From Styela clava (lineage: Eukaryota > Chordata > Ascidiacea > Stolidobranchia > Styelidae), in NCBI RefSeq assembly GCF_964204865.1, contig NC_135251.1, positions 20,832,001-20,896,000 of the forward strand: a stretch of DNA of 64,000 bases, given 5' to 3'. Below are positions 29,231-63,358 of this stretch, piece by piece (the stretch's first letter is position 1; every line of letters begins with the position of its first letter). The notes under the pieces are model-generated. The model was not told the DNA's origin and ran no database searches. It was given only the letters and a program-made list of their open reading frames with translations. The position numbers were made by a program, and so were the translations under genes.

Positions 29231-29424
29231 TCATACACTAGCAGTCTCTTCGTATTTTTCTGTACTCAATAGCTGGTCAGACCGACAAGTTGTTTTTGGT
29301 GAGCGTACATTATAAACATGTTGTCTTCGAATAATGTATATCACACAGCAGGTCAGAAGTACGATTATTACAGCAGCAAGTGCAAAAGTTAATATTGCAA
29401 CTGTGTTGTTCATATCACCACCTC
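29231..29424 (-). CDS. Last exon: transmembrane helix and cytoplasmic tail
   Basis: The acceptor is CTTTTTTCAG before GAGG (phase 1). The open frame runs on past the acceptor into a SINE in the intron, but that extension is not coding. The exon gives GGGD, the membrane helix and a tail rich in Ser, Thr and charged residues. Confidence 0.85.
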
Positions 29425-41014: not shown

Positions 41015-43497
41015 ATGTGGTCGAGTTTTTTCGCAGCCATTGTAACCAGCTTCATTCTGGTCAAGCAAGTGGCAGCAAGTTCGTGCAGCAGTAAGTACAT
41101 TTTTGTATGTGTTATGTATTTATGATAAATGTTTTGTATTGGCAGACTACAAGATATTTTGCTCCGAAGGAGAACGGACTTTTAGTAAGCACTAATTATA
41201 AACATAAAATACAATGAAAACGGGGTAAAATTTCCTCGTCTTTATTAACAAACCAGATTATAAACATATTCTGTGATATAGTACGTAACTTTTACACATA
41301 TTTTGAGTCAGACTCAACGGTTCTGGGACGATTTCTCTGTCACAAAAATCAGGGCAGTTGAGGGATTATTGAAATTTTCAGTATAATAGTTACACGACGT
41401 CACGAGCTGAACTTCCTGCTTTGACGTATCATCAGTATTTACAATAACGAAATAATCTGATATAAAACAAGCTCGATGAATATCCATTATTTCCGTGGTG
41501 CTGGCTAAATTAAAGTAATTATTAGTTATGAACTAAAGTTAATTTATCAACATTTTGTAGCGTTGTGTAGTACGACGTATTAGCGCGTTCGGGCTCAAAT
41601 TACCTGAAATGATTCACTTAACATTTGAATAATAAAAATAGCGTATGATGATGAACTTAGTTGCATAGGTGAGTCGCGCTTGAGATTCAAGCAATAGACA
41701 CTCATTGGGCTCATTGGACTTTGTAAAAACCGTGCTGTTTAATGAATAGGGCTGATGCCATAAAGACGGCACGCTGTTAACATCAGCGTTTTAAATGTAT
41801 TCAGTGTAAATCATCAAGGATTTTATTATAATTACATTCGCCACCAATCCGAATTTATTATCTCTTTCAAAATTACAATAGACATTTGAAACTATTCTGA
41901 TGGAGTAACACTACGTCGTACTGTCAGTTATTTCCAAATGAGCATTCAATACGAATCCTTTTCATGCATCCCAGTCTTATTAATAAATTGATTTTTTCAC
42001 AGCCTCGTGCAGTCGAACTCTCTATATAGAGGAGTTAGCAGCAGATATTTCATCTCCGTGTTATCCTGGCAATTATTTGCAAAATCTAAACTGTAGAACA
42101 GAGATACAGTCTGATGGAACGAATCTGACTCAAATACAAATCACAGCCTTCAATTTGGAACCATGGCATGACTTTCTCAAGGTATGTCTTGTGGTGCTCA
42201 GTCCCAGACCAGAAATTTTCTGTCGGTTATATGTTGCATTGAAATCCGAAGAGCAACTGAGGTTTCAAGCGCGATGAGTTCTTTTTACTTGTAATTATTT
42301 ATCATCGAAATTTTCAACGATCTTAAACGATCTTTTAATTGAGAATTATCCCTACCTGGAGGTGATTTACTCAAAATGAAGAAAATTGCCTTCTGCCCAG
42401 GTCGCGACCTATGGGTTTCTTTCTTGCGATCTTTCAATGCTAATTTAATTTTATTTTGATTGAAATATACGACTCAGATGTACTAAATGATTGATATGTA
42501 TAATGCACTGTATTTTTGACATTGCTACCGCAACTAAGTTTATTACTATTAAGATTTATGGTTAATACCAAAATGTCATTTAATATATTAACAAACCCTG
42601 GTCTTCTTTTCATATCTGTGAGACCCGTGTGCCTAAATCAATGATCATAAGGTGTTTTGTTGAAAATTAATAGACGTGGAAAATCAAAGATTACTTTGCA
42701 ATTTTATTGAATCGTTTTGGGCTGTTTTACATGCTCGCATATCGGCGGTTAATAAACTTTTTTAGTCGAATTCTTTCATTCATATTATCACATTTGAGCT
42801 ATTTATAACGTTAAACTACCAATTCTGTAGTTTACGAAGTCGCTCGGGTGCATATTATAAACTGTTAAGCATGATAGAAATTAAATTATGCTCAATTATA
42901 TGTTGAAAACAATCAATGTTTTTTTAACCTTTTTTTTGTCATGCACGAGTTAATGCGTAATCGCGTTTAGGTCAGTTATTTGAGTTCAACAATTGTCCAG
43001 AAAATAATTTGTTTTGATGACTAAAAATGTCATTAAATTTACTGTCATTTAGTAATTCAATTTCTGAATATTTGCATCATTGTTTCACTGTGACATTCAT
43101 CATTTTATAATCCATGTAGAGTCATATTTCGTCATATTTTTTGATTTGATTGCATAATAATGACATCGGGTTTTAGGAAATTCAATATTTTCTGATCGCG
43201 ACGCATTGATTATCGTTTATCCAATTTTTTTTTTGTATTTTTGTTTGTAACAAAATTGCCAAATTGCCAGAAGTAAAAAGTTTGAATCCTATATTTCTCG
43301 GCTTATATAAAAATTGAAAAGTAAAAACAAATTAAAATTTTTCATGCAGTTATATGGCGTGACAAGCTTCTTATTATTCATAAACTCAACAACAAAGAAC
43401 GTAATAATAACCGGTTATCCAATTGGTAACATTACTGCTCTGTTTTCAACGGACTCCAGCATCAACAAATTCGGATATAATGCTACTGTTCGAGCAA
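41015..43497 (+). CDS. Exons 1-3: signal peptide and CUB domain
   Basis: Exon 1 (41015-41090) encodes a hydrophobic leader after MWSSFF. Exons 2 and 3 encode a CUB-like domain recognised by SSPCYPGNY, LNCRTEI, ITAFNLEPWHDFLK and STDSSINKFGYNATV. The first disulfide pair is plausible; the second half has no cysteines, so the usual second disulfide is absent. Confidence 0.8.
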
Positions 43498-46400
43498 GTA
43501 AGTTGTAAGATACTATAAAATAAGTTATCAAGCAGATTTATCGAAATGTATACAAGAAATTATGAAACATATTTATTCAAAAAAAAAAAATAGAATCGCG
43601 CGTCGAAACATTTCATGCTCTTAAAGCAGCGTCTAATCTGGTGAGATATTTTCCTTTAAAAAAAAAATTGAGTCTTCGCTGACTTTATCCTGTTGTTTAA
43701 GTTAAGTGATTATTCATTAGAGGTTCATCCTGTTTTCTTCAGCATAGCTGATATACTTATTTCATTTTTTAGTTTCGGAAAGTGACGTCCTCAATCAGTA
43801 TAATAGCTATCACGCGGAGGGCGCTGCTCATGTATTGAATTCTCCGGTATATTTATCCAGCAGTGGTGACAAGGGAATGAATGGAGAAGCTATTGATTTG
43901 ATGTTCCTTAATATTCCTAACACCACCGACACACCTATTCAATCGTGGAATGATTACACAAGTGAGATAATAATTACAGTAGTCTATATACCACTAGCCG
44001 TCAAATCAAATCCGAATCGAATATTTAAAATATTTTCTCGATGCTATCATGTTTAATTTTTTAATGGACTTACATTTAAGTCTTGAAACCTACAAAATAG
44101 CTAAACATAGGATTAAAATGTGCGTACCTATATTCATGTTTGTTACATGAAAGTCCTGTTCGAAAATAACACATCATATTTCAATCGAAATTTGATTGAA
44201 TTTTGAAGCATTCAGTGAGCCCCAGTATATCTTTAGTTCAAAAAATGTAATTGCCTAGTGTAAATTCTCGAGATTTTGACATTTCAGACAATTCATTTGA
44301 AACTACGTGGTATTTCTATGATTTTAATCTTGAATGATATATATAATTTGTTATATTTGATTTTTGCAAAACGCTCTATACCCGACATGGGCATTACGAC
44401 CAGCGGGTCAAATGCGACCCGTCGGGTACTTCAATCTGGCTCGCCGGATGCTGTAACAAGTAAACTGAAACCAAATTTCGATGTTTTAGCTTATAATAGC
44501 TCAAGGAATTTGTTGAGATTGCAATTAAATTTTGTTTCAGAACGAGGCTTATTGTTTTCTACTTTTGCTTTTGTAACACTGTAAATATTGTTCATAAAAT
44601 GTATCTTTTTACGTCACACTTACATGGCCCGACAGTCCACGTGGTCGATATTTTTGGCCCCTGGTTCAAAAACCTCGCCCATTTCTGCTCTACACGGTTA
44701 AATGAACGGAGATAGTTTAACAAATGTTTTTGACGCTGATTGGATTCAATTGTTTGTGAGCTTTTTCCATGAACCTTTACATTCAATCGTTTTAGAAATA
44801 TGACGACACTGATTTTTAATTTTTGACCAATAATTAGACAGTTTATCACACACTGTTGAAAAGTGCTTTAGCATGGGACTATTAACAGGCCAGAATCCGT
44901 TCGCCAACAAAAGTCTTCTGCAATTATTTTATGTCTTAGGACTTAGACCAGGGCTTGGCAATTAATTTTCTGAGTGGGCCAGATACATATAATAGACTTT
45001 GTTACTGTGCCGGAAGCACACAACTCAATACGAAAAACTATAAAAAAAACAAACAGTTTATTTACAACAGCTAGTCCAGCAGCTAGGCTAATGTTTATAT
45101 AATAATACAGAGCACAATGTAACAATCGGGTCCATTATGACGTTATTTTCATCGATAACGGCCGGATTTAACACTTCGGTGGGCCGGATCCAGCCCGCGG
45201 GCCGTAATTTTCCCACCCTCGTCTTAGACAGTATTCAATATTTGCAGTCCACTGGAATCAAGGTTTATTGGATTTACTAAAAGCATTACTGAAGAGCCAA
45301 GATAAAAAATAAAAAAATACATACATTTTCATTTTAATCGGTGTAATAGACTGGTGGTGCATTGATAAACACCTGTGAAAGTATAAACCCTTTACACGTC
45401 TTTCTTTGACAAATGTTAACAAAATACCATTTTTTTCTGATGCGAGGTTGAATAATCGTTTGTTTTTGTACGCTTTAAAATAACCGTTGAAGCTAATTAA
45501 ATAATTACGAATTGAAATAATATTTATATACCCCCAATTAAGGCAACAATACATTGGCAGTAATAATGGCGCTTTTCAATTTTGCCAATTTTTGTAGGAT
45601 AATCGTTATAATTAGTCTCCAAGATTGTCTTTCAAACAATATAAAACTTGTCGAATTATAATATAAAGTTCGCGAGATATGAGGCTTTAAAGTTGTATAA
45701 CTCATATACGTGATGCCAAAGCAGGAAAACCGGCGTTCAGGGTCAAAAGACGTTTTCGGGAAAGCCGGAATACCGGCTTTAAGGGTTCAAATAGTTAACA
45801 AAATACCGTTTTTATCTAATGCGAGGTCGAATAATCGCTTGTCCTTGTACGGTTCAAAATAACTGTCAACGCTGATTAAATAATTACAAACTGGAATAAT
45901 ATTTATATACCCCAATTAAGGCAACAATATATCGGCTGTAATGATGGCATTTTATACCGTATTCTGATAATGATTCATATTTCATGAACGCTGTGTACAG
46001 GGTTAAAATCATGAAGCTGTTCTCATTCAATGGGAATGGAATTCAGCTGTTACGAGTATCAATCATGTCATGGGCAACTTGCCATTAATGCACAATTTCC
46101 CTTTGACTCATCTCAGATTATTTTTGGTTCTGGTTTTGAATATGAAATAACTAAAACCAGGTATTTGTTTATTGGTCAACTTAATTAAGGAAAAATGATT
46201 TGGATATATAAATGATATGACTATATTCTTTATTTGAATATAATACTCACGTGCATTGTAATACCCATCGTTGTATGTTGCCGCGAAGGTATATTTTCTA
46301 ATTTGGATATTCATATTGCTAATTTGAAGCCCATACAGTATGAATGACGCTCAAAAAGCATTGTGTTAAAATACAGGTAATCAAAACTACTATTTTTTGG

Positions 46401-49400
46401 TAAATATTCCATTTATACAGCAAAATTTTGATGACTCATCCACACTAAATTTGACGCGAGTTGTTCCTGATAGATGACTGTTGTATGCCGTCACTTTATT
46501 ACGTATTAATGACTTTTGTGCCAATGTGTTTTATGCGAAAATATGATTTTGACCACAGCCATGCACCTATTTTTTGGTCGTTTGAATAAATCTGAAGTCG
46601 AATTTGAAAGATTGCATAACACGCTGAAGTGATGGTCAAACGCTGTTGTTAGAAGTCTTCAACAGGGGGAAATATAGCGAAGAAAATACTCAAATTATTG
46701 CGTCAAACTGGATAGTTATGATTTAACATATGTTTAATTTTAAGAATCTAACTTTCCATCGATATACTGATTTATCAAGCATTTCATATGTTTAATTAAT
46801 CATGATCTTCAGTTAAATTCGTTTGGTGTTTTAGCAGACGGAAATCAAAAAATCTTCAAATATAATATGAATTTGAAATAAAAAAATGTGTAGGCTTCAA
46901 AATATTCCGCAATATAATATATGTAAATACCTTCTGCCCGTTTTGCATGGTCTCCTTTAGATAAGTCTTATCATAAATATATGTCGTAATGAAATGTCGT
47001 GCCATCTACATTTTAGATGGCAATGTTTCTCATTTCGTGCAGTCTCGCCTACCATTTATAAAAAGTTTTATCACACCGTAAGCAATAGATCGGATGCTTC
47101 TGAATAATTCAATTTTTTTTACAATGTGCTCAATACTGCTGTGAAATTTTCGTAAATTTGTAGATTTACCCACATACGCTGCTAGCCAAGAAAAGAAGAG
47201 TTTGTAAGGGCTGGTCAGATGATTGTAATCATAAAAAGTGAATCAAATCCTAAATTAATCTAATTATTCTGATGCAATTATCGTATTAATACTCAACGGT
47301 CTACTCTACAAGATGGTCTTTCGATTTATGCCATCTCGGACGAGGTGGTGGTATGGACATAAACTCGAATTGTTTATTTTGCGACGCTAAGATACTAAAG
47401 ATCACAGTGGTGACTAATAGCTCCCCACAATTCGATTCAGTTCAGTCAATATGCCAGTTCCAACTAGCGCCATGCATATATTATAACGTATAGGCGCACT
47501 TGAATTTTGAATACACAACAAATAAATGACGCAATAATCCTTCAAAAGCTAAAACTAAGTTGATATTCAAATGTACCATGATAAATACCAGCAGGTTAGG
47601 CTATGCTATTCACCGTATGATAACGACGAATAAAATTTCAAAGCCAGTTCTTCCTTCTGCCAACAATCCAAGTATTTCCTGTAATGGGTGGGCGAGAATC
47701 CTGTTGCATACAACTCAGTCATTTAATTTCAGTACAATTGTTTTTTTTTGGCATCTTTTATATATCTTTTGCAATAATGCTTTCAATTCTGTGTGATATA
47801 GCAATATGACTTCACGGTCCATAATAGTATATATTGTTGGAAGATTTTCGAAGTTTGTACGTGTGAACAAAACTTTTAAATAAAGCGCCACTAAGGTATT
47901 GCGACTTAATATGTATGAAGTTGTTCACGTATTCGAAACTTCTTTCCCATCAACCCATCTAACAAAGTTGATGGGCTCCTCATATAGTTTTGGACATTAC
48001 TGATGCCATTCGACGAAGACTCTGTCTTGGCAACAATTTCTTTACAGGCGCATATAATTACTTATATATATATATATATATATACAACTAATTATATATA
48101 ATTACAATTGCAACCTGATGAAAGGCAAAAATTCAAAAAAAATGATGTCAAATTATATCAAAACCTATTGCCAATTTTAATTTTTGCATATATATACCTG
48201 ACTCTTTTATATGTTAGCTAAAGCAATATACTAAAAAATTATATTTATTCACGAAATTTCAATGGTGTACTGCTGAAATCAATTAAAAAAAGACTCAAAA
48301 TATCTGACTTTTTTATAGTTATTCTCGCAAACCTGAACGAATCCGCTGTATTAACTTTCAACGTAACTGCTACCGGATTCACTGCAAAATGGATGGAAGT
48401 ATCCGGATCAATTTCGTACAATGTATCGGTCTTTGATTCTGACGGAAACATTTTAAAATCTGTCGTTACTACCGAAACGGTCCAAATCTTCAGCGACCTA
48501 CCAAGCGGCTCTGATTATAACATTTCTGTAAAAATTACTGATAAGCTGGGAAATGTTGGATACTTTAGTGGTAATACTACCACTGGTAAGTTCCATATAA
48601 AAATCATATAAATATATAGATATTACATAAGAAAAAAACTCAATAATTACATTAACTACATAATCCCATTACTTCCCATTTTATTAGGCCCATCCCATCG
48701 ACCTTTTTTAGCTGACAAATAATTCGGATTCTGGCGTTTTCTTCATTCTTAATATTTTCTCAGATGTTCTTTCTCCCACCAATCTACGGGTAACTGATAT
48801 AAAACAAACAAACTTCATGGCAATATGGGATGCTGTTGATGGAGCAACTTCTTATCGGGTAAAATATACATGAATAATCTAATGTAAACTACCAAATTAC
48901 ATAGATATAGGCTAGATATATAGACAAGGATGAAAAGAGAGGGGAAAATAAAATCTGAAAATAACTAATGAAAAACGAAGAAGTTTAAATTTTGGTCGTT
49001 CTTGACGTACTTGTGGAACATCCAATATAATACCACAGAACAACCTAAAATTACGACAAAAAAGTCTAGTACATTCGCCTTAAATGGATTCCTAATATTC
49101 ATTTCTTCTTAGCGGGGCTTTGATATATTTAAGTAAGTAAGCGTGATTAAGTATTAGGGCTTCAAAAAGATAATTCTCGAAATTGACGAAAGGTTTTCTT
49201 GGTTGAACAGTGTGACTATGACGCTAACGGCGTATCCTACTCCAAGCAAACTGAAAATGCGAGTTTTCTGGTAACTGGATTATCACCTGGATCGCTGTAC
49301 ACAATAAATATTTTTGCCATATTCCCAGTCGGTGTGAGCGATGCATCTTCTATTCAACAGATTACAGGTCAGAAATATATTTGGGTTGTGCTATTTCATT

Positions 49401-52400
49401 TCAGTTGCCGTCCTTCCAAAACCTAATGTATATTTTAGAATGCATATTATGTACGAAAAAACGCGGTGTTCTGCTTTTGTCAAGATTGTGGCTTTCGTGA
49501 CGTCATATAAATAATTCGCTCCGAAAAATCTACGTAATATTTCTCCGCCTGTTCGCAAGTCAAGCAAATGTTGGGGCATGACGTTTAAAGGCTTTTTGAT
49601 AACGCTAAGAAGCTTGACTATACTATCGATTTCTGTTATTTGATGGATATGAATGGGACTTTATTGGGTTGAAATTATAAATTAGCCCTATCAAGTTAAA
49701 TGACAAGGAGTGATGAGCATTTTATAGATCAGCACTTTTAGTTTCGGAAATACCGTTTAGCTGACAGTCATAAATATGGAGGTAGTAAGATATACAGCGA
49801 TATGCTATAGATTGAGTGAGATACAAATTTTTCAACAGTGTGTAGTTGCAGTAGTTTACCATGATTTATCGAATAAATGTATTTTTTCGAACTTTGTTGG
49901 GCGAATTGGTATATTGTCTAACAGTTCCGGAAAGTGTAAGCAATCTTCACTTGGTGCATACAACATATGCTGTCAATGTGTCTTGGACTGGTGCTACAGG
50001 CGCGTCGGACTACAGAGTGACTTTGCACGATGAAGGAAACGGATCCCAAATTTTGATCACAACGGATACCAAGATTCTCATTGGGAATCTTTCACCTGGA
50101 ATCGACCATTATCTTTCGATTGAATCTGTTAATGCAGGCGGGAAAAGCCCAGCAGTTGGGACAAACTTTACCACAGGTATGTTTATTTTTTACATCATTG
50201 ACTTCCATCGAATTTTTACTCTAACTAAATATTTGATAAATACTTGACAAGCATAACAACTGATAGGTTTGTGTGATTTGAACTTGCCGGTAACTGTCCA
50301 TTTCAGATTTGCTACCACCCGATGCCTCAGTCCAAGTTTCCAGCATAACGTCCAATAGTTTCGTCGTAAACTGAATCTCCATACCAGGAGCAATATACTA
50401 TGACTAGGAAAAGAGAAATCTTTATAACCTTACTCAAACTTTGCCAATAAATAAAACAAAACAAACATTTGATAATTTGCCGAGTGGTTCATTCATTGAA
50501 ATAAGACTCAAAGTCTACAACAACAAATTCTAATGTAGTACGTAAAACAAATGTACATTGATCAAACATTTGCAACCGTTTCTCTTTTTGTACGCTAAAG
50601 AAACTCCGTAAAATTTCAAACGAGAAAATTGGTCAGAGACCGAAGACTTATCGATCGAAAGTTAGCGGATCCCAAAACAGCGCTCTTACTCCATAGTGAC
50701 ACCTTGTGTCCCATCACTAATTAATTAATAACTCGCTAATTATACGACATAATTCATCCAAAATCGATAGGATTCTGATCCGAGATATGATGAATGCATA
50801 TGCAATTTGTAGCGGATTCGTCCTCGCTTTCGTGAGATATCGCGTGTATCTAACAGACAAACAAACAAACAGACAAATACCTTAATTACCTCTTAAGATC
50901 GATAAGTAATGAGCTACCTCTTGTTCTGTAACATTGTAAACGATTGGTTAGGTAGTAAGGTATTAGAGTACTTGAACTCAGGTCTTGGTAAATATCGCTC
51001 TGCTATGATTTTTAGAATAACCTCCTTTCCCCCCCAAAATAAAATCGGTTACAAAAGTGAGTAAAACTTTTATGTTTTGATATCACGCGTATTTGATAAT
51101 TACCCGAGATAATATTAAACTATCTCACAGTTCCGTCAAGTGTAAGCGAGCTTCGTGTTGTTTCCTTAACAACGTCTGCTAGTGTATCGTGGAGTGGCGT
51201 AAAAGGAGTTTTATACTATACCTTCACCTTGAGTGGTGACGTAAGAGAGGAAATATCCAACACAACAGACATCAACATTACTGTGCCTTCTCTGTTGCCT
51301 GGGACGGATTACTTTCTTAAAGTTGAAGCTGTAAATACAGCGGGAGTGAGTCCGCCAACTTCATTGAACTTTACAACGGGTATATATATAATCGCTTTAC
51401 ATTTTCATTTTCTTTTTACAATCAGGAATTCATGACTTAACAGTTTTTATTGCTTTGGTTCAGAATTGTTGCCCTTTGGTGCCTCCATTGAAGTTGCCTC
51501 CATAACGACGGATAGTTTTGTCCTGAATTGGACATCAATACCTGGAGCGATATACTATGAACTAACAGTTTCAGAAAAGCGAAATATGTATAATTGTACG
51601 CATAAGTTATCAGTTAATGAAAGCCGGAAATCATTCACTAATTTGCCGAGTGGATCATTATTTGAAATCACTCTCAAAGTATATAACAGGCCCACAAACT
51701 ACAAAACAATGAATGGAACTGCCACAACAGGTATAATTTATTAAAATTGACACCATTACTTCTATGCACAACCAATCAATCATTTTATTGCGCTTTCAAT
51801 TTGCAGGAATGAAAACACCAGATAATACATCAGTTACAACTATAACTCAAACATCTTTTCGTGTTAGTTGGTCGACAATTAAAGGAGCCATACATTATCA
51901 AGTAAGCTGATAAATGTAAACTTCCAGAATAGCGATACATTTGATCAGAAGTCACATTTTACAACGGGAGTAGAAAATCTGAACTATCAATTATTAAGTA
52001 AAATTGATGAGTCAAAGCTATATAAATAAATCCTGAATGAAAAGAGTGGAATGAGTGGAAAAAATGTATCTTCTTTTCAGTTGATAATTTTTCATTCTGA
52101 TTTCCGTCTAACTATTACCAGAAATAGCAATTAAAAATAGAAGGTTCATTAAGCTGAAATCAGTTCAAATTTATATTCAATGCAGTGTACAATAGTAGCA
52201 GCATTGCCAAAAAAGGCACAGATCATTCGCAATTGATTGTTAACAGACTTGAATTAAACACATAATCCAGGAACGTGGAGCTTATCTTCTTTTCAGATAA
52301 ACGCAACTTCTGATGGCAGTATCATTCACAAAGAAACTTCATCTAATTCGGCATACTTAGATAATTTATCTCCTGGAACAGTGTATAACTTGAGTATTTT

Positions 52401-53508
52401 AGCGATTTTCCCTTCTGGCACGAGTTCGCCATCTTCCAGAAGTCAAATTACAGGTAAGAATTTACATGTACAGATATATGATGTGCCGATTTGTTGTCTC
52501 ATCTCATTATTTAATGTTATTTGAAGTTCCAATCCTGGATGTCCAGAATTTCTGAGCTGGTGTTGTGAATGTTTTCTAAATCAACCTTGAGGAGTAGATC
52601 ATTGGAAGATCATCATATATTCATCTGTTATTTTATCATTGCAAATCATGAATGCATGTTCACAGTCGTATGCACGTTGTTGAAAATGTACGTGATCATG
52701 AATCAACCATGTTTACTATAAGCTGAATCTATTCAACGCGCAACCTCCGTGCAAAATTATGTTTATTTTGCCAGAATGTTCAATGAAAACTGGTGCGTTG
52801 AATATCTGAAGCCGTGTGTTTATATATAATATGGATATGTTATTGTTTCTTCTATGATGTGTGAATTTTTATACTGCTTATACATTGCAAATTTATGTAT
52901 AAGTTGGAAGAGTGACATGGCATGTACCATCTAAAATAAAAATACATTCCATATTACGAGTGTTTAGTATCAGACTATTTCCTGCAATGGAAATAAAGCT
53001 GGTAAGAAGCAGAACAGCTGATAATGGTAGTGTGTTTTGCTACTGTTTGCCCTGTTTAGTTGGGCTTTATGCGCTTTGAGAGTGTTGCGACATCTTGAGA
53101 CTTGAATGGCGAGCCATAGAAATAAACAAGATTTTGCGATGAGGTTTCAAAGAAGAATTTATTTGAGTTTGAGTGAGTGTTTTTTAGATATTTTATAAAA
53201 AGAAAGGTTAAAGATGAAAAAACGACATTAGACTGTATTTAGAAGCAAAACTTCCAGATCTTTAAAAAATGAGCTTTTCTGCAGCCACAGCCAGAAGAAA
53301 TCCTCTGCCTTTCAACTCTATTGCCTCAGTATTTCAGACCAAAGATCAGAATGTATTATGAGTCAGAACACGCAATATTTTTCAGTTTTACAAAGATAGA
53401 TGATCTCAAATGGAGTGTGTGCTTGAATTAATTTATTGGTACGAAAATATCGTTTGATATATATATATACGCATGTGTAATGACAATTTTGACAACAAGC
53501 TTTTCGTA

Positions 53509-53547
<39 letters not shown>

Positions 53548-56500
53548 TGTCACGCAAATATGAGATAGCGTGAGCGACATTGCCATTGTTTAGATATTTC
53601 TAGTTTTCAGTACTTACAATATATATTGCTTCATGGCAATCTGCAATCATTTCGATAAAATAGGTAACTAAGACGGTTGTGTTTTTCGACAAGTTTTCTC
53701 CCGACTACAAGAACGCATGAGTAACCGACAGCGTTAAAAAATGATGATAATCAGGATGCCGCCATAATTGTTTTTATGGCTTGTATGCAGTACGGAAAAC
53801 AAATGCACTCTGAGCAACCATTTGCCAATTTTTCTCTTTTGGTACTGTAACAAACTCCGTAAAACTATAAATTAGCTACCGCTTCTTTCTGTGATCGTTT
53901 GTCATCCCGATAACACTGTGAACGATTAGTTTGGTAGTGAGTTATCAGGGTACTTGTACTCAGGTCGCATACGATTTTTACAATAACCTCCCTTTGCTCT
54001 CTGAAAAAACTTCCCGGTAACAAAAGTGAGTAAAACTGTTATGTTTTGATCTATCTCGAGTATTTGATATTTCACCGAATATATATATAAATAAACTGTC
54101 TCACAGTTCCGTCAAGTGTAAGCGAGCTCCGTGTCGTTTACTCAACAACATCTGTTAGTACATGGTGGAACGGCACAAAAGGAGTTTCCTACTATACCTT
54201 GACCTTGAATGGTGGCGAAAGAGAGACAATAATCAACACAATGGACACCAACGCTAACATGACTACTCTGTTGCCTGGGACGGATTACTCTCTTAAAGTT
54301 GAAGCTGTGAATTCAGCGGGAGTGAGTTCACCAGCTTCATTGAACTTTACAACCGGTATATAATCTATTTATATTTTCATTGATTTTTTACAATCTGACA
54401 TCCACGATCCTACAGTTGTTGATGTTTTGTTTCAGAACTGTTGCCCTCCGGTGCCTCTATCGAATTTGCCTCCGCAACAATGGATGGTTTTGTCCTGAAT
54501 TGGACATCAATACCTGGAGCGACCTACTATGAACTAACAGTCCTAGAAAAACGAAATATGTATAATTCTACACATAAGTTATCAGTTAATGAAACTCGGA
54601 AATCATTCATTAATTTGCCGAGCGGATCATTATTTGAAATCACGCTCAGAGTGTATAACAGGCCCACAAACTACAAAACAATGAATGGAACTGCCAAAAC
54701 AGGTATTGAAATTGACACCATTACTTCTATGCAGGGCCAATCAACCATTTTATTGTGTTTTTAATTTACAGAAATGAAAACACCAGGAAATGTTTCAGTT
54801 ACAGCTGTAACTCAAACATCTTTTCGTGTTAGTTGGTCGGCAATTAAAGAAGCTATACATTATCAAGTAAGTGAAGTTGAAGTTCAGAATAACAATTGCT
54901 TACATTTGCTGGGATGCTTAGATATTTTAGACATTTTACGATAAGAATAGAGAAGGTAGAGGAATACGAAAAGTTGGGACCCCCCAGAAGTATGTGCACC
55001 ATATGGCGCACAACCTGAACATAGTATGTGTACCAGGTTAGGGTTCAGGTTGTGCGCCATCTTGGTGCACATACTTCGGGAGCGCCAAAAGTTGAGTGTT
55101 GACAGATTCAGCTAAATATACATTACAAATTGCTAGAAACGAATTTCAAGTTTATAGAATGTCACAAATAGTGTATATTGTATAGAACGAGTGGGACTGG
55201 GTAGGAAAATGTGTCATTCTAGAAAAATGTGTAAAGAAAATCCTTATAGTAACAGCGTTATGGGTGTGAGTAGAGTGTTACCGCCAGTGAAATTTTGTTT
55301 GTGGATCTTGTATTGTTTATTGTTTTCAGGTTAACGCAACTAGTGATGCCAACATTGTCCACGAAATTGCTCTATCTCCTTCGGTATTACTTAATAGACT
55401 ATCTCCAGGAACACTGTACAATTTAAGCATCTTTGCAATCTTCCCCGCTGGTATCAGTTTGCCGTCAATTGAGAGTCAAATTACAGGTGTGTCATGAACT
55501 ATGAACTTCCGGAATTTTCGATAATGCTCCAATCGAACGGTGGTTAATAATGTAAAAACTATTTCCCAGTTTGACTAATAAATTTGAATGTGAGCTTTTT
55601 ATTGGGCTGACATGGTAGTTTCGAAGGAAGAAAATAGTAGACCTAAAGATATTTTGATGTCCACATAGGAAGCCAAATGATTACTGCTGACGAATCTATT
55701 ACACCTTTGTAACAATTGAGTTTATTGTTCAATGTATTTTCGTTTACTCATCAGCATTGTTGTTGCATGAAAACTTCGTTATTTTTATCTTGTCACTTTG
55801 TAATCTTAAAAAAGTGTGTATCTTGCTGATTTAACACTATGACTACCTGTAGCCTACCATATTTTGTTTTTCAATGGTGTCATATGTGATATAACAACTG
55901 TTATATGTTCAAAGGAATGAGGCCAAGAAATATTCTCAAATAAATGAAACACATACTTTCATATGTATCAATCAGGTTTCATGACCATCACGAAACTTGA
56001 AAAAAATGGGTCCATGATTGCAGGAAGCCCGGTATTGTGATTTCACAATCGGTCTAAAACAGCTATACTGTTGATAGTGTTTTGTATTTGCATGTTAACG
56101 AAAATGTGTGAACACCACATTTAATGTTTGTACATAGTTACATTTTAACCAAATGTTTTGTATTTTATCTGTGATTTTTATTAAAATTTAGATAAACATT
56201 CGTTTAAAATTAATTTTTGTATTGTCAGCTATTTTCATTGTAATTTCAATATTATCATTCATCTTTTATTTTTATTTTGTCTTACTTTATGAATAAATTG
56301 GATGAATGTTTGGAGTGACATATGAGAAAATAAATGTACATCATTGTATTTTGTATGTTAAAGTTGAAACAAGTCCTGAGGTTTGAGAGAAAAACTTCAC
56401 ATATTATCATTGTAAGAAACGATTATAAGTATAGTAGCATCATACTGACATTGACTTCATTAACCTCTTAGAGCAGTTTCAATAAAAATTGGAGGAGCTC

Positions 56501-59500
56501 CCGTAGTATGTTCACCAAGATGGCACACAAACTGAACATAGTATGTGTACCAGATTGGGATTCAGATTGTGCGCCATCCTGGTACACATACTTCTGGGCA
56601 CCAAATTGAAAGAGTCATTTCACCGGGTAACGTTCGTTTATATGCAACATCATCCGACTAATATAACTTAATTATAAAACACTTTTGATTCAATCAGGTA
56701 AATTAGTAAGGAGAGGAAGTTGCAACCTGTGTTTGAGTTATATTTGAATTTGAACTTTTCCTAACTTAAAATTTTTTTTGTCGTGCCATATCGGGCAAAC
56801 TCGTTTGAAATCATAGCAACGTGTCGATTTTAAATGGGATGCCAGATTTGGAAATATTAGTAAAGAGATTCATGTTCTATCGTGAATTAAGCATGATTTG
56901 TTATTTTGTTTAACTGGTATTAACAGAGCAGATCCGTGGATTATTTTTTACCATGGTGACTTCTAATCAAGGTTTGAGCGTTGATATCGCGCTCATTACT
57001 ATGCTTGACTAAAATTTGTGAAATTACTGTGACAGTTTTTCACATCAGATTTTGAATTTTCAGTTCCTGGGAACATCAGCAACTTGACAATAAGCAGCAT
57101 TCTTACAACTAGCTTTACGCCGTATTGGTCAAGCATCAAGTGTGCTTGCTCGTACTCAATGACCATAATTCGAAATAAAGACAATGCATGGAAGAAGGAA
57201 ATCGGCAATGTTACCAGCGGAGGTTCAATTACAAACGTTGAACCGGGAATTACGTATACAGTCTACGTCAGCGCTACTAATGTAGCAGGGAACAGCGCCG
57301 CAGCATCTGCTACGTTTTCAACAGGTGATGAATGGAAAAGATTTTTGATTTTTTTTTGAACGGTGTTTTTAACTTAATTATTGTTTTTTTAATCACATAA
57401 TAACATAAATGTAATTTTATGTACCTCCTGGCTGGGCCTACATATCTATATTTAATGCGGTTTGTATCATTAGGTATAATTTTACCGTCTTACTTTTTTA
57501 GAATTAATTCCCCAGTCAACTATGTTGACAGTGCGGGACGAAACTACCGACAGTTTTGTGATAGAATGGCCTGTTATTGATGGGGCAACACAATACACAA
57601 TATCAGTGAAAGAAATGAGAAATCTTTACAACAAAGCGGAAACGATTACTGGAAACACGAAGACAGTCAATAGCTTACCGAGTGGTTCTTTTTTCAATAT
57701 CACGCTTACTGTAATTGGTAAAGAGCCCGAAAATAACGCAACTTTGACTCACGATGCAAAAACAGGTAAATTTAAAACTCATTAAGTTATTAAACCAATA
57801 ACTTTTTTGTAAGTAATTGTCTGTAAACTAGACATAAAAATCATTTTATTTTTGAATTCGTATGCGTAATGGGTTTAGAGATAGCGTGGACCATCGGGAT
57901 GTTTGAATCTTGAATTGCAATATACTTTCCTTATTGTTTTTGTGTTGGTTTTAATTGCGCAATGTTTCATCATTAACACCACCGGTTAGAATGCTTTATA
58001 TTTGTTAACACTTTTTCTATACCATTTTGTAGCGGTTACACCCCCATCGGGCATCAATGCCGTTTCTACAACGCAGACCTCATTCAATCTGGGTTGGACC
58101 AAAATTGTTGGAGCTTTGAAATACAAGGTGAGTTCAACTCTATCATATCTAAATTGGTACTCCTGAAGTGTGCGCACCAAGATGTCGCATGACCTGAACC
58201 CTAATCTGGTACATAACCTGAGTTCAGGTTGTTCGCCATCTTGGTGCGCATACTTCAGGAGGTCCCTTAAATTTTATAACTGACATTGTTTTTTTATATA
58301 ACAATCGCCATGCTTTCCAACGCTTTAGGGCTTAAGCAGCGCTTTCTGAAATAATTACATTCTTTTTGGTAGCCGCATCTTGAAATAGTATGCGGCAATT
58401 AAGCCAATAATTTTTATAACAAAATATACCTGGCACTGTCTATTAATGCAACTATATCTATTTATCAAAATTTGTTACGCCTACCAATTTCATGTGCCTT
58501 TTTGCCTACACACGTTAGAATACAGAATATCCTCTCCTTTATTGTGAATAATATGTAAATTTGTTTTTGTGCTCTCATTAATAGGCCCATTCAATATCAC
58601 TTTGATCAAAAATAAGGCATCGAGTTTCTGATGATACTTTGATTTCGTTGATATTTCACGCTCAACTTCACCAATTTTTGGATATATGTATATTCGGTAA
58701 TAGAAGCATATATATAGATATATTTGAAAAACAATAATATCTTTTCTATATCTTGAAATTTAACTGAAATCAGATTGAATTTTAAATTTATCAAAGTTAA
58801 TTTCGTGTAAAAACAACCGCCTAATAGATGACATTTTTTTTGCAGATAAAAGCTTCAGAAGGAGCAAATATTATTTCGAAAGAATCGCCTATTGAACAAA
58901 TAAAGATAGACAACCTGTTACCTGGGACTGAATACAACCTTGAAATAGTTGCAGAGTTTCCTGTGGGCGCAAGCGCACCTGCGGTTAAGAAGCAAAAAAC
59001 TGGTAAGTCTCCAAATCAAACTTATTCTGGATAATTCATTTTGGGACAATAATTGCACCATATATATATCCCTTTTAGTGTGAACTCAAAACTGAAAGAC
59101 AAACTAAAAAAAACTATTTCAAAACAAATTACATGCAGTTTCGATGATTTTGGAAATGAATCTGCTTTTGGTGATTGGTTGTATACTTTCAATTTATCTT
59201 GACAAATTGTTGATAACATTCATACACCTATTGGTAGTAAATGCTGTAAAAAAATCACCGGTGTGGATTTACAATCTCTAGGATTGTAAGTAAGGCTTAA
59301 ATTGTAAGTAATAAATTCGGCTCAATTCAGGTTTGAATAATAATAATAATAATAGTGTTTGGTGTCATTGCTGGGAAATATTATTACTAAATTCACATTT
59401 GAAATCCACGCGACTTACTTGGTCTCGTTTCACCTTCACTGGAATTTGAAGCAGAAAATTATGTTATAGATCGATTAATGTTTTTTTCGATTTTTCGCAA

Positions 59501-62500
59501 TACTTTGCTAGATAACAATTCTTCCGGGATTAATTTTGTGTTTATCAAATTTTATTCAAAATTTATTTCAGCCGATGGGATGGGCAAAAAAGAAAAACTG
59601 TAAATGTACAAAAATAAAATCGAAAATAGCAAAAACTGTTTAGTAAAGTTTAGTAGAGTAACGTTTTTGTAAAAAAGTACTGTTTATATGCTTCCCCTAA
59701 TTTGACTAGATTTATTACTAAGTTTAAAATATTTAATTTTTATTGGTCAGAGTGGGCTATTTTATCATCTATTCCCGTCCCTATATTTTTAAAAATAAGT
59801 ATATATTTACCATATACTATATTTTTTATTTACTATTCTAGTTTTCTTTTACAGCGCCTGGAAATATTACAGATTTGACTGTAAAATCAACAACCACGTC
59901 GTTTACTCCTAAATGGACTGCCGTTACCGGTGCTACGTCCTACTTGCTCAATTTAAAAAGAACAAGAGACAACCAAGATATAAAATCGGACAAGCAAGTT
60001 TCAATCGAAGAAGTTGTGGGAGGAGTCCGTCCGGGAACTCATTATACACTTGATGTCACGGCTGTGAATGACGCCGGAGGAAGTTTCAAAGCTTTTGAAA
60101 CTTTTACCACGAGTAATAATATTTAAATGTGATTTTGCATCGTCCGAAAATTTGTGGGAAATGAAGAATTTTGATGCATGTAGAACGTTTTTATAGTGTG
60201 GTCAAAAATTGAAAATAGATAAGACTCAGTCTTTCTATGTTCAAAGTCTTTTCCCGTTATGCTTCTTGTTACCAGTTATGGAATCTTAGACCTCATTTGA
60301 AAAAAAATTTAGAACCGGTAATTTACTTTTATTCTGAGAAGAGAGTGATCACTGTTCGATACATTTTTCCTTTGTCATAAATTGCCATTATTTTTCCTTG
60401 TTGCAGACTTGTCCACTCCAACAGAAGTTAAAATAGTAGCAATAACAAAGAATCGTTTTCTGTTGACTTGGAAAGAAGTTGACGGCGCAAATCAATACGA
60501 GTATTCGTGCACAGATAAAATCGCCCAAAACACGACAGAAACTCAAGTTGCAGTAGAGGATTTAAAGTCTAATCAACAGTACACTTGCGAAGTTGCAGCT
60601 CTAACTCCGGACATGAAGAGTTTAAAAAGTTCATATTCCGAAAGGACAGGTACGTTGATCACAGTACCGGAAACAGACGAAAATTCTAAGTTGTACGCAT
60701 ATTTAGGAATGTATGAATTAGGTAAAAATCAATATCAAAGAATTTAACTGATGCCAGTTTTTTAAGGTATTCAATTCGTCGCTAGGTTGTGATAGACGAG
60801 CACCCAAAGTTACAGAACATCAATGAATAGATGAATCTGTCTGTTTTTGCAACATGTAGCATATTAACTTCGCTAACTTAATGTCAGTTTTTTCTTGATG
60901 ACGGTCTATTATCAATCACTCATCATTCTGAATATTTATTTCTATTGGCAAGGCTCTTTCTATAATGTCACACAACCTTTATCCTCATTCATTCGGTATA
61001 TCATCATAAACTCTCCTTCGACTAATTTTTTTAGGAAATAAACAAATACATCCAAAATACCCAGACTATGTAGCATATGTGCTGAGTTTTTGTCAAGTTG
61101 CAGTCCATTTAATGTACTGGACTGAAAAATGTTATTTGAGAATCAAGTGCCTATGTGTAATATTTTTCAGCAATGCTCGAATGTGATAAAAGTCCGTGCC
61201 TAAATGGTGGTATTTGCAAGGAACGGGATACGTCGGGATTTGATTGTCAATGTACTTCTGCATACGAAGGAAAAACTTGTGAAAACGGTGAGTTGAAATT
61301 TAATACGCGATAATATTGCATGTCAATTAAAAGTTACCGTAATATTTTTATCGATCAGAACGATCAAAAAATCTTGAATTTATGATTTAATTTTATTCAG
61401 TACGCAATTGGTGCGAAGAGAGAGAGACACCTTGTCCTGGCAACGCAACATGCTTCAATGACGTGAATATTCTGAAATCTCGTTGCGAGTGCAACGCGGG
61501 GTTTACAGGGGATGCGGAATTACGTTGTGTTGGTAAGTGGGCGCTCCCGAAGTATGTGTACCAAGATGGCGCACAACCTGAACCCTAACCTGGTACACCT
61601 AACCTGGTACATCTAAGATGAATATAGTGATAAATAGAGTTTTGAATCGTCAAGAGACAGTTTTGCGTTTGATAAATTCCTACAGATCAGAATACGAACG
61701 AACAAAAGTGTGAGAGGTTTATTAAACAACTTGACGTAAGCAATATATGTGCCGTTTGCATGTGTTAAGAAAGCTAAGAAATTGTACCAATAAATTTTAG
61801 AAATCATTGCTTTTATTTTAGTTGGGTTTAAAAGTAAATAAATATTTTAGTAGGATTCTCATATGTCCTATTCGATGCAAAAACAGAAAATTATCCTTAA
61901 ACAATAATTTGGCAAATATAAATAGATCCAAGTTTGGGGGTTATTTTCTCTTCATAAAAAAAAGAATTGAACATAGCAAACTTTTGATTAATCAGTTTTT
62001 TTAAACATTTAAAAGTGTGCTTCTTATTTTTGTCTTCAACGCTATTTTCATGTTGCAAAAAATTGTATGTCTGTCCTAATCTATAATATATTATCATAAC
62101 AGCATTTTGTCCTGACTCATCCATGGTGAAAGACAATGTTACTTTAACTTTCAACACTTCCTATACTGGAAGGGTAGCCCATTCCACGGAAAAGTGTGAC
62201 GGTGAGTTCAAAAACTTTTATTTTCTGGAAACTATAATTCATTAAATTATTAATTTAATAGCATTACTAAAACATACAGAAGCGGAATTTCCTTTTACTT
62301 TAAATTAAATATGCAAATTTCATTATTGGTCCGAGCTTCACAAAAAAATGAATATATTTCCACAGTTGTAATTCTTACATAAAAGCTTAATACAATGCTC
62401 TAATGAAAAAAACAATGTTTGCCATTCTAGTTTTGATTCTACTACGATTGTTCACAATAACATTCGTTTCAGGTCGTTCAAAAGCTTCGGTTGTTTGCGT

Positions 62501-63012
62501 TACAACATTTAACGGTAACACGGCTGTTTCTGAATATCCAGAATCTGGAGTCACCTTGGTGAAATGTGGTACAACAGTGGATGATGTGGTATCCAAGGTA
62601 AATAAACAGTAATATAGTTTTCATTTGAATTATCTTGGTATTTCTTGAGTTTTGGAAATTTCAGAGTTATATTTTGGGATTTTTTTGTGATAAATTTCAA
62701 TGGCATCGTTGGCTATAATATATGCCACTATTTAAAGCAAAGGCATAGATAATACATACGTAAGTTTGAGAACAATAGTCCAGTCGAGGAAGCTGAAACT
62801 CCAACAATGACGTGAATCGTGTCATACTTCCGAAGGTATTGGGCGTTGCATATTGTATAACCTAATATGTTCTATCCCACTATTAAACTATCTTTACCAA
62901 TAATCTGTGTGTACTACACGACCCGCGACGGAAGAATAATCATTATATATTTTTTTATTATTATTTATATATGTTTGCATTTACTGTATGTTTATTGTTT
63001 GACGAACGAAAT

Positions 63013-63049
<37 letters not shown>

Positions 63050-63358
63050 ACATTTTATAAAAAATATACTTAAAACCATATCTTTACCCATCACTACAAC
63101 TTACAATCAACTTAATCACAGATGTATGTCTATTGTATATCTATCTCCCCGTGAAAATATGCATGCATTACTCTTTATATCGATCCAAACACTGCTTGAC
63201 AGGTAACTGATACGACGACTGACTCCAAAAAACTAACGGAACAGACAAAAAAATTAGAAGTCTTGACGTCGGGTGATGCACTTAAGGAAGACGATGTCAG
63301 TAAAGTAGCTGAATATATTGATGACGTTGCAAAAATTTCTGGAAAGAGCAAGAATACG
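41015..63358 (+). CDS. Putative adhesion GPCR ectodomain: CUB, 14 FN3, 2 EGF, HRM-like, GAIN start (3' end outside window)
   Basis: I join 27 exons: 41015-41090, 42003-42181, 43350-43497, 43773-43961, 48319-48585, 48764-48858, 49211-49367, 49925-50176, 51131-51379, 51464-51730, 51807-51901, 52297-52453, 54107-54355, 54436-54702, 54772-54866, 55330-55486, 57064-57324, 57502-57765, 58033-58127, 58846-59002, 59855-60112, 60407-60649, 61171-61287, 61401-61532, 62103-62201, 62473-62597, 63203-63358. All have AG/GT borders and compatible phases (almost all modules phase 1-1), giving 1602 codons without a stop. Order: signal peptide 1-21, CUB about 24-133, linker to 197, FN3 domains 198-1392, EGF 1393-1475, HRM-like 1476-1550, GAIN subdomain A from 1551. 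The autoproteolysis site and seven helices would lie beyond the window. Calling it an aGPCR rests on the HRM-plus-GAIN end; the FN3 array itself is certain. Confidence 0.88.
43773..43961 (+). CDS. Exon 4: linker of unknown fold
   Basis: A 63-residue phase 1-1 exon, polar, without cysteine, between CUB and the first FN3. No domain recognised. A 4.4-kb intron with two hAT elements follows. Confidence 0.7.
44381..44686. mobile_element. hAT-like MITE
   Basis: The left end with CGACATGGGCATTACG and the right end with CTCGCCCATTTCT are imperfect inverses. Flanks GCTCTATA (44373-44380) and GCTCTACA (44687-44694) match at 7 of 8. In the 4.4-kb intron after exon 4. Confidence 0.6.
44949..45223. mobile_element. 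hAT MITE with 8-bp TSD
   Basis: Left CAGGGCTTGGCAATTAATTT, right inverse CGAGGGTGGGAAAATT, with GCCCGCGGGCC near the right end. Flanks ACTTAGAC (44941-44948) and TCTTAGAC (45224-45231) match at 7 of 8. Confidence 0.8.
45415..45960. repeat. Tandem duplication of about 165 bp
   Basis: 45415-45580 and 45795-45960 are direct copies with moderate divergence (TTAACAAAATACC, GATTAAATAATTAC, ATTAAGGCAACAATA), separated by about 215 bases. Intronic. From 45961 to 48318 I see no exon, only AT-rich sequence with a TA run. Confidence 0.8.
48319..49367 (+). CDS. FN3 domains 1 and 2 (types B and C)
   Basis: FN3-1 is one exon (48319-48585) with the core Trp in AKWMEV and LPSGSDYNI. FN3-2 is split over 48764-48858 and 49211-49367, the phase-0 intron falling after the C-strand Tyr (GATSYR), with LSPGSLYTI in the second half. 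Confidence 0.88.
49925..50176 (+). CDS. FN3 domain 3 (type A)
   Basis: Single phase 1-1 exon, with VPESVSNL at the start, the core Trp in VSWTGATG, LSPGIDHYL and NAGGKSP, ending TNFTTG. Confidence 0.9.
50307..50540 (+). pseudogene. Decayed FN3 exon (type B) within the array
   Basis: Homologous to the exons at 51464 and 54436 (LLP at the start, SIPGA-YY, EKRN, LPSGS, YN). The acceptor TTTCAG is kept, but the codon for the core Trp has become TGA, a TAG follows after the YY motif with several residues missing, and the 3' end with its donor is lost near 50530. Skipping it leaves the frame intact because neighbouring introns are all phase 1. Confidence 0.85.
50634..50890 (+). repeat. Interspersed repeat, copy 2
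   Basis: Inverted relative of 37305-37480, extended here by TTTCGTGAGATATCGCGTGT and a short run of ACAAACAAACAGACAAA. It lies in the intron between FN3-3 and FN3-4 and is missing from the duplicate block at 53786, so it inserted after that duplication or was lost there. Confidence 0.7.
51131..52453 (+). CDS. FN3 domains 4, 5, 6 (supermodule A-B-C)
   Basis: A: 51131-51379 (VPSSVSELRVV, SWSGVKG). B: 51464-51730 (ELLPFGAS, LNWTSIPGA, EKRNMYN, NLPSGSLFEI). C: 51807-51901 plus 52297-52453 (RVSWSTIKGAIHYQ, then NLSPGTVYNLSI). Confidence 0.9.
53513..53543. repeat. (TA)n microsatellite
   Basis: Pure TA run in the intron between FN3-6 and FN3-7. Another TA run is at 48063-48084. Confidence 0.95.
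54107..55486 (+). CDS. FN3 domains 7, 8, 9 (supermodule A-B-C)
   Basis: A: 54107-54355 (VPSSVSELRVV, then STWWNGTKG). B: 54436-54702 (ELLPSGAS, LNWTSIPGA). C: 54772-54866 plus 55330-55486 (RVSWSAIKEAIHYQ, RLSPGTLYNLSI). Confidence 0.9.
54977..55086. mobile_element. Palindromic MITE, copy 3
   Basis: Arms GAAGTATGTGCACC...GGCGCACAACCTGAAC and inverse. Exact 8-bp duplications AAAAGTTG (54969-54976, 55087-55094). It lies in the intron splitting FN3-9. Confidence 0.92.
56494..56602. mobile_element. Palindromic MITE, copy 4
   Basis: Foldback related to copy 3, with TSD AAATTGGA/AAATTGAA (56486-56493, 56603-56610), 7 of 8 matching. Intron before FN3-10. Confidence 0.85.
57064..59002 (+). CDS. FN3 domains 10, 11, 12 (supermodule A-B-C)
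   Basis: A: 57064-57324 (VPGNISNLTI; the domain contains a KCACSY segment with two extra cysteines). B: 57502-57765 (ELIPQST, IEWPVIDGA, EMRNLYN, SLPSGSFFNI). C: 58033-58127 plus 58846-59002 (LGWTKIVGALKYK, NLLPGTEYNLEI). Older and more diverged than the two preceding supermodules. Confidence 0.88.
58156..58265. mobile_element. Palindromic MITE, copy 5
   Basis: Subfamily of copies 1 and 2 (GGTACTCCTGAAGTGTGCGC start). TSD TCTAAATT/CTTAAATT, 6 of 8 matching. In the intron splitting FN3-12. Confidence 0.85.
59855..60649 (+). CDS. FN3 domains 13 and 14
   Basis: 59855-60112 is an A-type domain (APGNITDLTV, PKWTAVTGA, VRPGTHYTLDV). 60407-60649 encodes the last FN3 (LTWKEVDGANQYEYSC, LKSNQQYTCEV) with a pair of cysteines not seen in the other domains. 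Confidence 0.88.
61171..61532 (+). CDS. Two EGF-like domains
   Basis: Exon 61171-61287 gives a six-cysteine EGF (CDKSPCLNGGIC, CQCTSAYEGKTC). Exon 61401-61532 gives another (WCEERETPCPGNATC, CECNAGFTGD, RCV) without the calcium-binding N-terminus. Confidence 0.9.
61540..61612. mobile_element. Palindromic MITE, half copy
   Basis: One arm only (GGCGCTCCCGAAGTATGTG through ACCCTAACCTGGTACA), then a short repeat of CCTAACCTGGTACA. It starts seven bases after the exon end at 61532, directly behind the donor. Confidence 0.8.
62103..62597 (+). CDS. Hormone-receptor-motif-like domain
   Basis: Exons 62103-62201 and 62473-62597. Four cysteines (FCPDS, EKCD, VVCV, VKCG) in HRM order with a central SYTGRVA resembling the usual T-x-x-G-x-x-A. 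The tryptophans typical of HRM domains are missing, so this is a degenerate HRM or a related fold. Position between EGF and GAIN is what one expects in adhesion GPCRs. Confidence 0.6.
63016..63044. repeat. (CT)n microsatellite
   Basis: Uninterrupted CT run in the intron between exons 26 and 27 of the adhesion-GPCR-like gene. Confidence 0.95.
63203..63358 (+). CDS. Start of GAIN domain (subdomain A helix)
   Basis: A 52-codon phase 0-0 exon. The pattern LTEQTKKLEVLTS followed by LKEDDVSKVAEYIDDVAKIS matches the first helices of GAIN domains (L-x-x-x-DV-x-x-V-x-x-I-x-x-I). The gene continues to the right of the window. Confidence 0.65.

Follow-up and report, generated by a model that had tools for sequence, protein, structure and literature searches.

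A predicted long-armed adhesion GPCR gene of Styela clava in which a CUB domain is followed by fourteen FN3 units

The question raised by this locus is whether a CUB domain, a long array of FN3 units, EGF-like units and an HRM-like segment belong to a single receptor gene and, if so, what kind of receptor it encodes. The window, i.e., the whole stretch of 64,000 nucleotides that was analysed, corresponds to C2:20832001-20896000 in the Styela clava genome, and the genome searched consists of 376.6 Mb in 379 contigs. DNA to the right of the window was included, and its positions are given in continued coordinates, in which the C2 position is 20832000 + x. A preliminary description, made from the letters of the window, had proposed an adhesion-GPCR-like gene whose GPS and seven transmembrane helices should be found further to the right.

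The open chain of 27 exons and 1602 codons with compatible phases, which had been proposed for the window, could be rebuilt exactly. These exons (41015-63358, forward strand) add up to exactly 1602.0 stop-free codons when exon 22 ends at 60649 (CAG/gtacgt), the introns are GT-AG and the phases agree. To the right of the window, ten further exons continue the frame with the rest of the GAIN region, the GPS, seven helices and a stop codon, and the gene ends at base 71292 (C2:20903292), see Table 1. The full gene thus has 37 exons and 2237 amino acids, with no frameshift or stop across the 2237 codons, 36 of 36 introns of the GT-AG type and consistent phases. The order of the gene product is a signal peptide, CUB, the 63 residues of exon 4, 14 FN3 units, two EGF-like units, the HRM-like segment, the GAIN region with the GPS, the 7TM domain and a short tail.

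Table 1. Features of the gene model; positions above 64000 are continued coordinates.
Feature	Position	Strand	Basis
Exon 1, start codon and signal peptide	41015-41090	+	Hydrophobic segment aa 3-21, phase-1 GT donor
CUB domain, exons 2-3	42003-42181, 43350-43497	+	Pfam CUB E 8.9e-6, above cut-off
Exon 4, 63 aa, phase 1-1, domain unassigned	43773-43961	+	Splice sites and coding score both good
FN3 unit B1, one exon, B by its layout	48319-48585	+	22-26% identical to other B units
FN3 unit C1	48764-48858, 49211-49367	+	95+157 nt split, phase 1-0-1
FN3 unit A1, single exon	49925-50176	+	Exon model and unit comparison
Decayed B-type FN3 exon, outside the reading frame	50307-50540 (edges approximate)	+	Between A1 and A2
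Triplet A2-B2-C2	51131-51379, 51464-51730, 51807-51901 and 52297-52453	+	DNA match to next triplet
Triplet A3-B3-C3	54107-54355, 54436-54702, 54772-54866 and 55330-55486	+	Protein identity with triplet 2
Triplet A4-B4-C4	57064-57324, 57502-57765, 58033-58127 and 58846-59002	+	Exon model and unit comparison
FN3 unit A5	59855-60112	+	44% identity to A4
FN3 unit Z, last of the array	60407-60649 (donor 60721 also in frame)	+	Frame
Two EGF-like exons	61171-61287, 61401-61532	+	Six cysteines each
HRM-like segment, four cysteines	62103-62201, 62473-62597	+	Position before GAIN region
GAIN-region exon 27 (first of the region)	63203-63358	+	Last exon inside the window
Exons past the window, before the GPS exon	64370-64645, 65347-65625, 66382-66501	+	Continued coordinates
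GPS exon	66919-67059	+	Pfam GPS
TM1 exon	67821-67930	+	Continued coordinates
TM2-3 exon	68695-68911	+	Continued coordinates
TM4 exon	69636-69783	+	Continued coordinates
TM5 exon	69991-70175	+	Continued coordinates
TM6 and start of TM7 exon	70593-70763	+	Continued coordinates
Rest of TM7, tail and stop	71032-71292	+	Continued coordinates

The exon models come from a small splice and codon model, whose training peptides were taken from the same locus, followed by hand curation. Given the start codon, the automatic exon finder reproduces exactly 26 of the 27 exons when the penalty lies between -8 and -13, and 25 of 27 at -14. For exon 22 it chooses at every penalty the later donor at 60721, with which the frame also stays open (1626 codons); the end at 60649 was retained because it gives 1602 codons and an ending like that of the other FN3 units. 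Over the whole gene the finder has at best 32 of 37 exons exact, and the edges of exons 22, 29, 30, 33 and 37 are set by hand. Some helix exons are lost at stiffer penalties, and the splice scores of exon 30 are poor (acceptor -1.0, donor 1.8, the donor used being TTT/gtaagt). A low intron penalty combined with self-training gave 53, 89, 104 and 114 exons, many of them tiny and spurious, and was rejected; a fixed codon model with stiff intron penalties gave 39, 35 and 32. In a chance control, length-matched AG...GT segments from the same 22 kb, the true exons included, were open in the required frame in 1 of 65 cases for the 258-nt exon and up to 15 of 64 for 95-nt exons. Taken one by one, long FN3 exons are thus far from chance and short exons are not, so that the case for the gene rests on the chain and on the domains.

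The downstream exons reveal the kind of receptor. Pfam 7tm_2 (PF00002) matches at E 2.7e-24, above the cut-off and over profile positions 3-250 of 250, and Pfam GPS (PF01825) matches at E 1.2e-11 to 1.3e-12, also above the cut-off, with the sequence CRCDHLTNYAVLV. The cleavage sequence of the GPS is HL-S/T; here HL-T is found at residue 1866, with the CUB and FN3 matches of Pfam N-terminal to it. A hydrophobicity scan finds the signal peptide and seven segments after the GPS, plus one more, barely over the threshold, inside an FN3. One helix exon is also detected when the genome is searched with PF00002 (E 1.9e-4, C2:20900669-20900917). The GPS and the seven helices that had been expected to the right are therefore both present, in the ten added exons, and a downstream product other than GAIN-7TM is excluded as far as GPS and 7TM are concerned. 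With both present, the gene is by its predicted product an adhesion GPCR (class B2) with a long modular extracellular N-terminus. No GAIN model of Pfam is reported, and the alignment with ADGRG2 starts 67 amino acids before the GPS match and continues through the 7TM; we infer a GAIN domain in the region that ends at the GPS. The C-terminus reads ...SATAF before the stop, which would fit the form of a class I PDZ ligand.

Comparison with solved structures places the signalling part among the adhesion GPCRs. When the GAIN region and 7TM are searched with phmmer, the best matches are ADGRG2 (E 1.7e-33), ADGRG6 (2.8e-31), ADGRE5 (9.2e-29) and ADGRL3 (8.5e-26), and all 30 distinct PDB sequences listed at E <= 0.001 come from adhesion GPCR entries, which include fusion constructs. 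The CUB domain, which had been called from the letters, is confirmed by a Pfam match above the cut-off, and among the 12 PDB matches listed for it by phmmer at E <= 1 the ADGRG6 ectodomain is second (0.0012) and cubilin reaches 3e-5. It could be imagined from these matches that the gene is a divergent ADGRG6 relative, i.e., an old CUB-HRM-GAIN-7TM receptor with FN3 and EGF in the middle, where ADGRG6 has PTX-SEA, as ADGRG2 and ADGRG6 are the best matches of the GAIN-7TM part by phmmer scores and the CUB also matches ADGRG6. However, the bit scores of G2, G6, E5 and L3 (119, 112, 104 and 94) are so close together that no subfamily can be assigned from them, and cubilin outscores ADGRG6 for the CUB. 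Further, orthologues of ADGRG6 are described, in the part of PMC11475505 that was available, as absent from Drosophila, C. elegans, Ciona, amphioxus and jawless vertebrates. We therefore consider this descent rather unlikely.

The likeness of the CUB domain extends to single residues. In the alignment with the CUB of ADGRG6, E78, D82 and D120 stand opposite E89, D97 and D134, and the spacings of 8 and 37 fit that numbering; these three residues are named at the calcium site of the ADGRG6 CUB in the accessible text of PMC6954182. Given the aligned acidic residues, calcium binding by the CUB of this receptor is plausible. The CUB query has 15 matches in the genome at E <= 1, 12 of which lie elsewhere (eleven on C19 and one on C2), and in the own-genome search none of the 12 is near a PF00002 7TM match.

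The weakest join in the gene model is the one between exon 4 and exon 5. The intron (43961 to 48319) is with 4357 bases the longest of the 36, the next being 1653 and the median 492. Exon 4 has no Pfam match at a limit of E 10, and a genome search with it covers just its own place. A second CUB, composed of exon 4 and pieces near 44.4 and 45.1 kb, was dropped because exon 4 has no CUB match. Early finder runs barred introns above 2500 and above 3000 bases, so that this join was not possible in them, and all three runs with the 3000 limit placed filler exons in the gap, 45111-45262 being among the pieces offered; the repeat allowed 3000 and 6000, and with introns up to 6000 exon 4 is joined straight to exon 5 at penalties from -11 to -14, i.e., in 4 of 6 settings. 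At looser penalties small exons are put into the gap, four at -8 and two at -10 (45111-45262 and 47644-47671).

Such insertions, the length of the intron and an exon 4 for which no homologue was found are what would be expected if there were two genes, one for a secreted CUB protein (exons 1-4) and one for the FN3-EGF-GAIN-7TM receptor, which would start at a first exon of its own downstream. However, the donor of exon 4 is good and in phase 1, which is the phase exon 5 requires, and in the available literature ADGRG6 is a precedent for CUB and GAIN-7TM on one receptor. A simple scan, which does recover the true exon 1, found in 43962-48318 no ATG exon that looks like a signal peptide and has a phase-1 donor; the gaps that precede the first EGF exon and the HRM-like exon likewise yielded none. 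The minus-strand control of the long gap is also empty, and the absence of a signal exon is thus weak evidence. Taken together, a division into two genes appears improbable.

The long FN3 array that had been proposed between CUB and EGF is real and consists of 14 exon-defined units, over which Pfam reports 13 fn3 stretches (8 over nine units and 5 over five). By exon layout there are three types of units: A is one exon of 249-261 nt, B is one exon of 264-267 nt, and C is split into 95 + 157 nt with phase 1-0-1. The order is B1-C1, A1, A2-B2-C2, A3-B3-C3, A4-B4-C4, A5, Z, and the array is thus largely an A-B-C super-repeat. The protein identity within types is 70% for A2/A3, 86% for B2/B3, 69% for C2/C3, 43% for A1/A2 and 44% for A4/A5, as well as 42% for B2/B4, 40% for C1/C2 and 42% for C2/C4, and between different types it is 12-29%. 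Some pairs are not separated from this cross-type range (A1/A4 24%, A1/A5 28%, A2/A4 29% and C1/C4 29%), and B1 is 26% identical to Z, hence no closer to the B type than to that unit.

Triplets 2 and 3 are, judged on their sequences, a recent duplication. At the DNA level they are 84% identical over 919 columns, covering A, B, the first C exon and the short introns, and the second C exon is 73% identical over 174 columns. Upstream of A three pieces match at 79-84%, and no match is seen in the longer introns that separate the two C exons or follow C. The Nei-Gojobori dN/dS between the two triplets is 0.51 overall and by unit 1.15 (A), 0.27 (B) and 0.40 (C), values that come without a significance test. 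Between A1 and A2 lies a decayed exon, to which tblastn aligns B2 at 50309-50521 (59% over 74 columns, E 3.7e-24) with in-frame stops. In bases 1-76000 it is the sole FN3-like alternative exon outside the model, and no intact one was found. The introns of the array also hold a dispersed CAPRWRT/YAHQDGAQPE-like repeat, at 54887-55111 (-) and 57989-58273 (-), which is present in the C1 and C9 paralogue loci as well and by eye looks like a short mobile element.

Within its own genome, the A-B-C array is found in this gene only. In a genome-wide search with the triplet, in which 47 candidates were scored, all 12 of 12 matches at E <= 0.001 lie inside the gene, the decayed exon included. An origin of the triplet by borrowing from other FN3 genes was rejected, as none of these matches lies outside this gene. 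When 11 loci (8 FN3 loci and 3 loci of two paralogues) were compared, there were two matches at E <= 1e-4, both in a single locus (L003), of 25 and 33 columns at 44-45%. The Pfam fn3 search of the genome scored 150 of 779 candidates, and as the units of this gene are absent among the 149 matches listed, genome-wide FN3 counts are lower bounds. Among these 149, the largest FN3 runs, dense and 80-90 kb long, are at C1:11.248-11.327 Mb (-) and C16:6.073-6.166 Mb (-). The loci taken from these runs show no close likeness to its units.

The two EGF units of the preliminary description hold as regards the six cysteines in each, but the Pfam EGF cut-offs are not reached (EGF_3 E 3.1e-4). Its HRM-like segment is in the right place and has four cysteines, but there is no match to the profile: with limits of E 1 and E 10 Pfam reports no HRM (PF02793), where the HMMER filters hide most matches above about 0.1. 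The segment has a weak match to GPR128_N (E 0.071), and the corresponding segment of a paralogue reaches 0.0034. We label 62103-62597 as HRM-like on account of its position.

Searching the genome with the GPS-7TM part gives at least 66 matches, of which seven fall on exons of the gene itself and the other 59 are weaker, at 22-52% identity; with 111 of 126 candidates scored, there is no close second copy of this part. One paralogue, at C1:22632001-22652000 (-), is an adhesion GPCR with FN3, EGF-like units, a similar HRM-like segment, a GAIN region and 7TM. It shares these modules with the gene studied here, the FN3 pieces matching at E 3.4e-10 and, weakly, 0.031. However, it is only 28-37% identical over its three GPS-7TM matches, and 2 of the 9 pieces scanned match fn3 and 0 of 9 match CUB. 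None of the FN3 units of our gene was matched in it at E <= 1e-4. FN3 on an adhesion GPCR is thus common to at least one paralogue, and the A-B-C array was found only here. Another adhesion GPCR locus, C9:21400001-21410000 (-), has EGF-like and WAP-like segments upstream of its GPS exon, as seen by eye in 10 kb.

The suggestion in the preliminary description of an allorecognition-type role found no support. In favour of an allorecognition receptor, or another highly variable recognition receptor, is the module turnover of the array, with one triplet duplication and one decayed exon, as well as the dN/dS of 1.15 in unit A. Against this stand a genome in which no close second copy of either the GPS-7TM part or the FN3 triplet was found, the lack of an intact alternative FN3-like exon in the bases scanned, and the titles listed for adhesion GPCRs, allorecognition and fibronectin, among which none is on such a receptor. 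The available part of PMC3447736 ties allorecognition to scavenger receptors and lectins. This role is very improbable. That the gene is a pseudogene in decay, as the in-frame stops of one FN3 exon of the array might suggest, is hardly conceivable for 37 exons without frameshift or stop over 2237 codons and with dN/dS below 1 for B and C.

The rest of the window contains several other features. An aldehyde dehydrogenase open frame (1-1410, forward strand, E 3.8e-180) is cut by the window edge. A sperm-tail PG-rich repeat frame of 409 amino acids (7034-8260, reverse strand, SHIPPO-rpt E 1.1e-7) adjoins an EF-hand gene, which is a single open frame of 947 amino acids (9163-12003, forward strand) with repeated EF-hand matches (EF-hand_7 E 4.4e-26). 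Frames at 20850-27116 (+) resemble the HEAT repeats of the PP2A scaffold subunit (match at 24522-24950, E 3.3e-23). The frames at 29234-32139 on the opposite strand could be those of a type I membrane protein: they have two EGF units, a VWA match that is weak and below the cut-off (0.0077) and, by eye, one transmembrane stretch.

We suggest that the locus is very probably one adhesion GPCR gene without a close second copy, encoding a long-armed, tethered-agonist receptor gated by ligand or force. As in other members of the family, the GAIN domain would cut itself between HL and T, with the two fragments remaining together. The FN3 array would be a long N-glycosylated rod holding the CUB tip far from the membrane; 50 N-glycosylation sequons precede the GPS. 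The tip could then meet a ligand of the matrix or of a neighbouring cell, perhaps with calcium. Binding and pull, or a change of shape, would release the tethered agonist (TNYAVLV...), and the freed agonist would switch on the 7TM domain and G-protein signalling. Over evolutionary time, the rod may become longer or shorter as FN3 units, which start and end in phase 1, are duplicated or lost.

It can be speculated, as a doubtful extension of the single-receptor reading, that this adhesion GPCR is lineage-specific and that an expandable FN3 arm has carried its calcium-binding, ADGRG6-like CUB off the GAIN-7TM core. The array would then gain and lose A-B-C units with phase-1 introns as their borders, and arm length would be an evolving parameter, possibly polymorphic or alternatively spliced. 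If so, the force or the distance needed for the receptor to fire would depend on arm length. The gene itself clearly illustrates the rebuilding of adhesion GPCR ectodomains by exon shuffling, and its duplicated, diverged and decayed FN3 units could serve as a natural series for relating tether length to mechanosensitivity.

How does this predicted receptor compare with known adhesion GPCRs? With ADGRG6 (GPR126) it shares the N-terminal CUB and its aligned calcium-site acidic residues, a module at the HRM position beside GAIN, the GPS and the 7TM domain. However, the place of the 14 FN3 and two EGF-like units is taken in ADGRG6 by PTX and SEA, and the HRM profile has no match here. The ADGRG6 order CUB-PTX-SEA-HormR-GAIN is not reproduced either, as Pfam finds CUB and GPS and neither PTX nor SEA. 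The CUB of ADGRG6 folds back on HormR according to the accessible text of PMC6954182; for this receptor, a long arm presenting the CUB to matrix or neighbouring cells would be a simpler reading than such a fold-back across 14 FN3 units.

Precedents for the single modules are found in other lineages. The adhesion GPCR set of the sponge Amphimedon has FN3, EGF and HRM ahead of GPS-7TM (PMC4302439, PMC3447736, each available in part), and in FN3 and EGF-like units resembles our gene; however, the available text mentions neither a CUB on an adhesion GPCR nor an array of 14 FN3. Invertebrate latrophilins have EGF, Ig, LamG and FN3 in their N-terminus (available part of PMC6422961), so that latrophilin-like receptors share the FN3 and EGF N-terminus, but Pfam finds no RBL lectin domain in this gene. 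Amphioxus adhesion GPCRs carry CUB and other modules (PMC2246102, in part), and thus share a CUB N-terminus outside vertebrates; however, 'fn3' occurs 0 times among their domain names in the text available. FN3 has been inferred for old holozoan adhesion GPCRs and is listed together with CUB among adhesion GPCR domains in the accessible portion of PMC12716839. The terms 'fibronectin type III', 'FNIII' and 'FN3' are absent from the available text of a 2026 review (PMC13197933).

The claim that the architecture was not recognised among described receptors is thus right for the combination but not for the modules, as FN3, EGF, HRM and CUB each have an adhesion GPCR precedent in the sources available. 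In the parts of the open-access literature available, CUB, an FN3 array, EGF and GAIN-7TM were not met together, and this combination may well have been reported elsewhere, above all in automatic annotations. What would be new here is the domain arrangement, a CUB, an unusually long FN3 arm and a signalling core, of a well-known kind of receptor.
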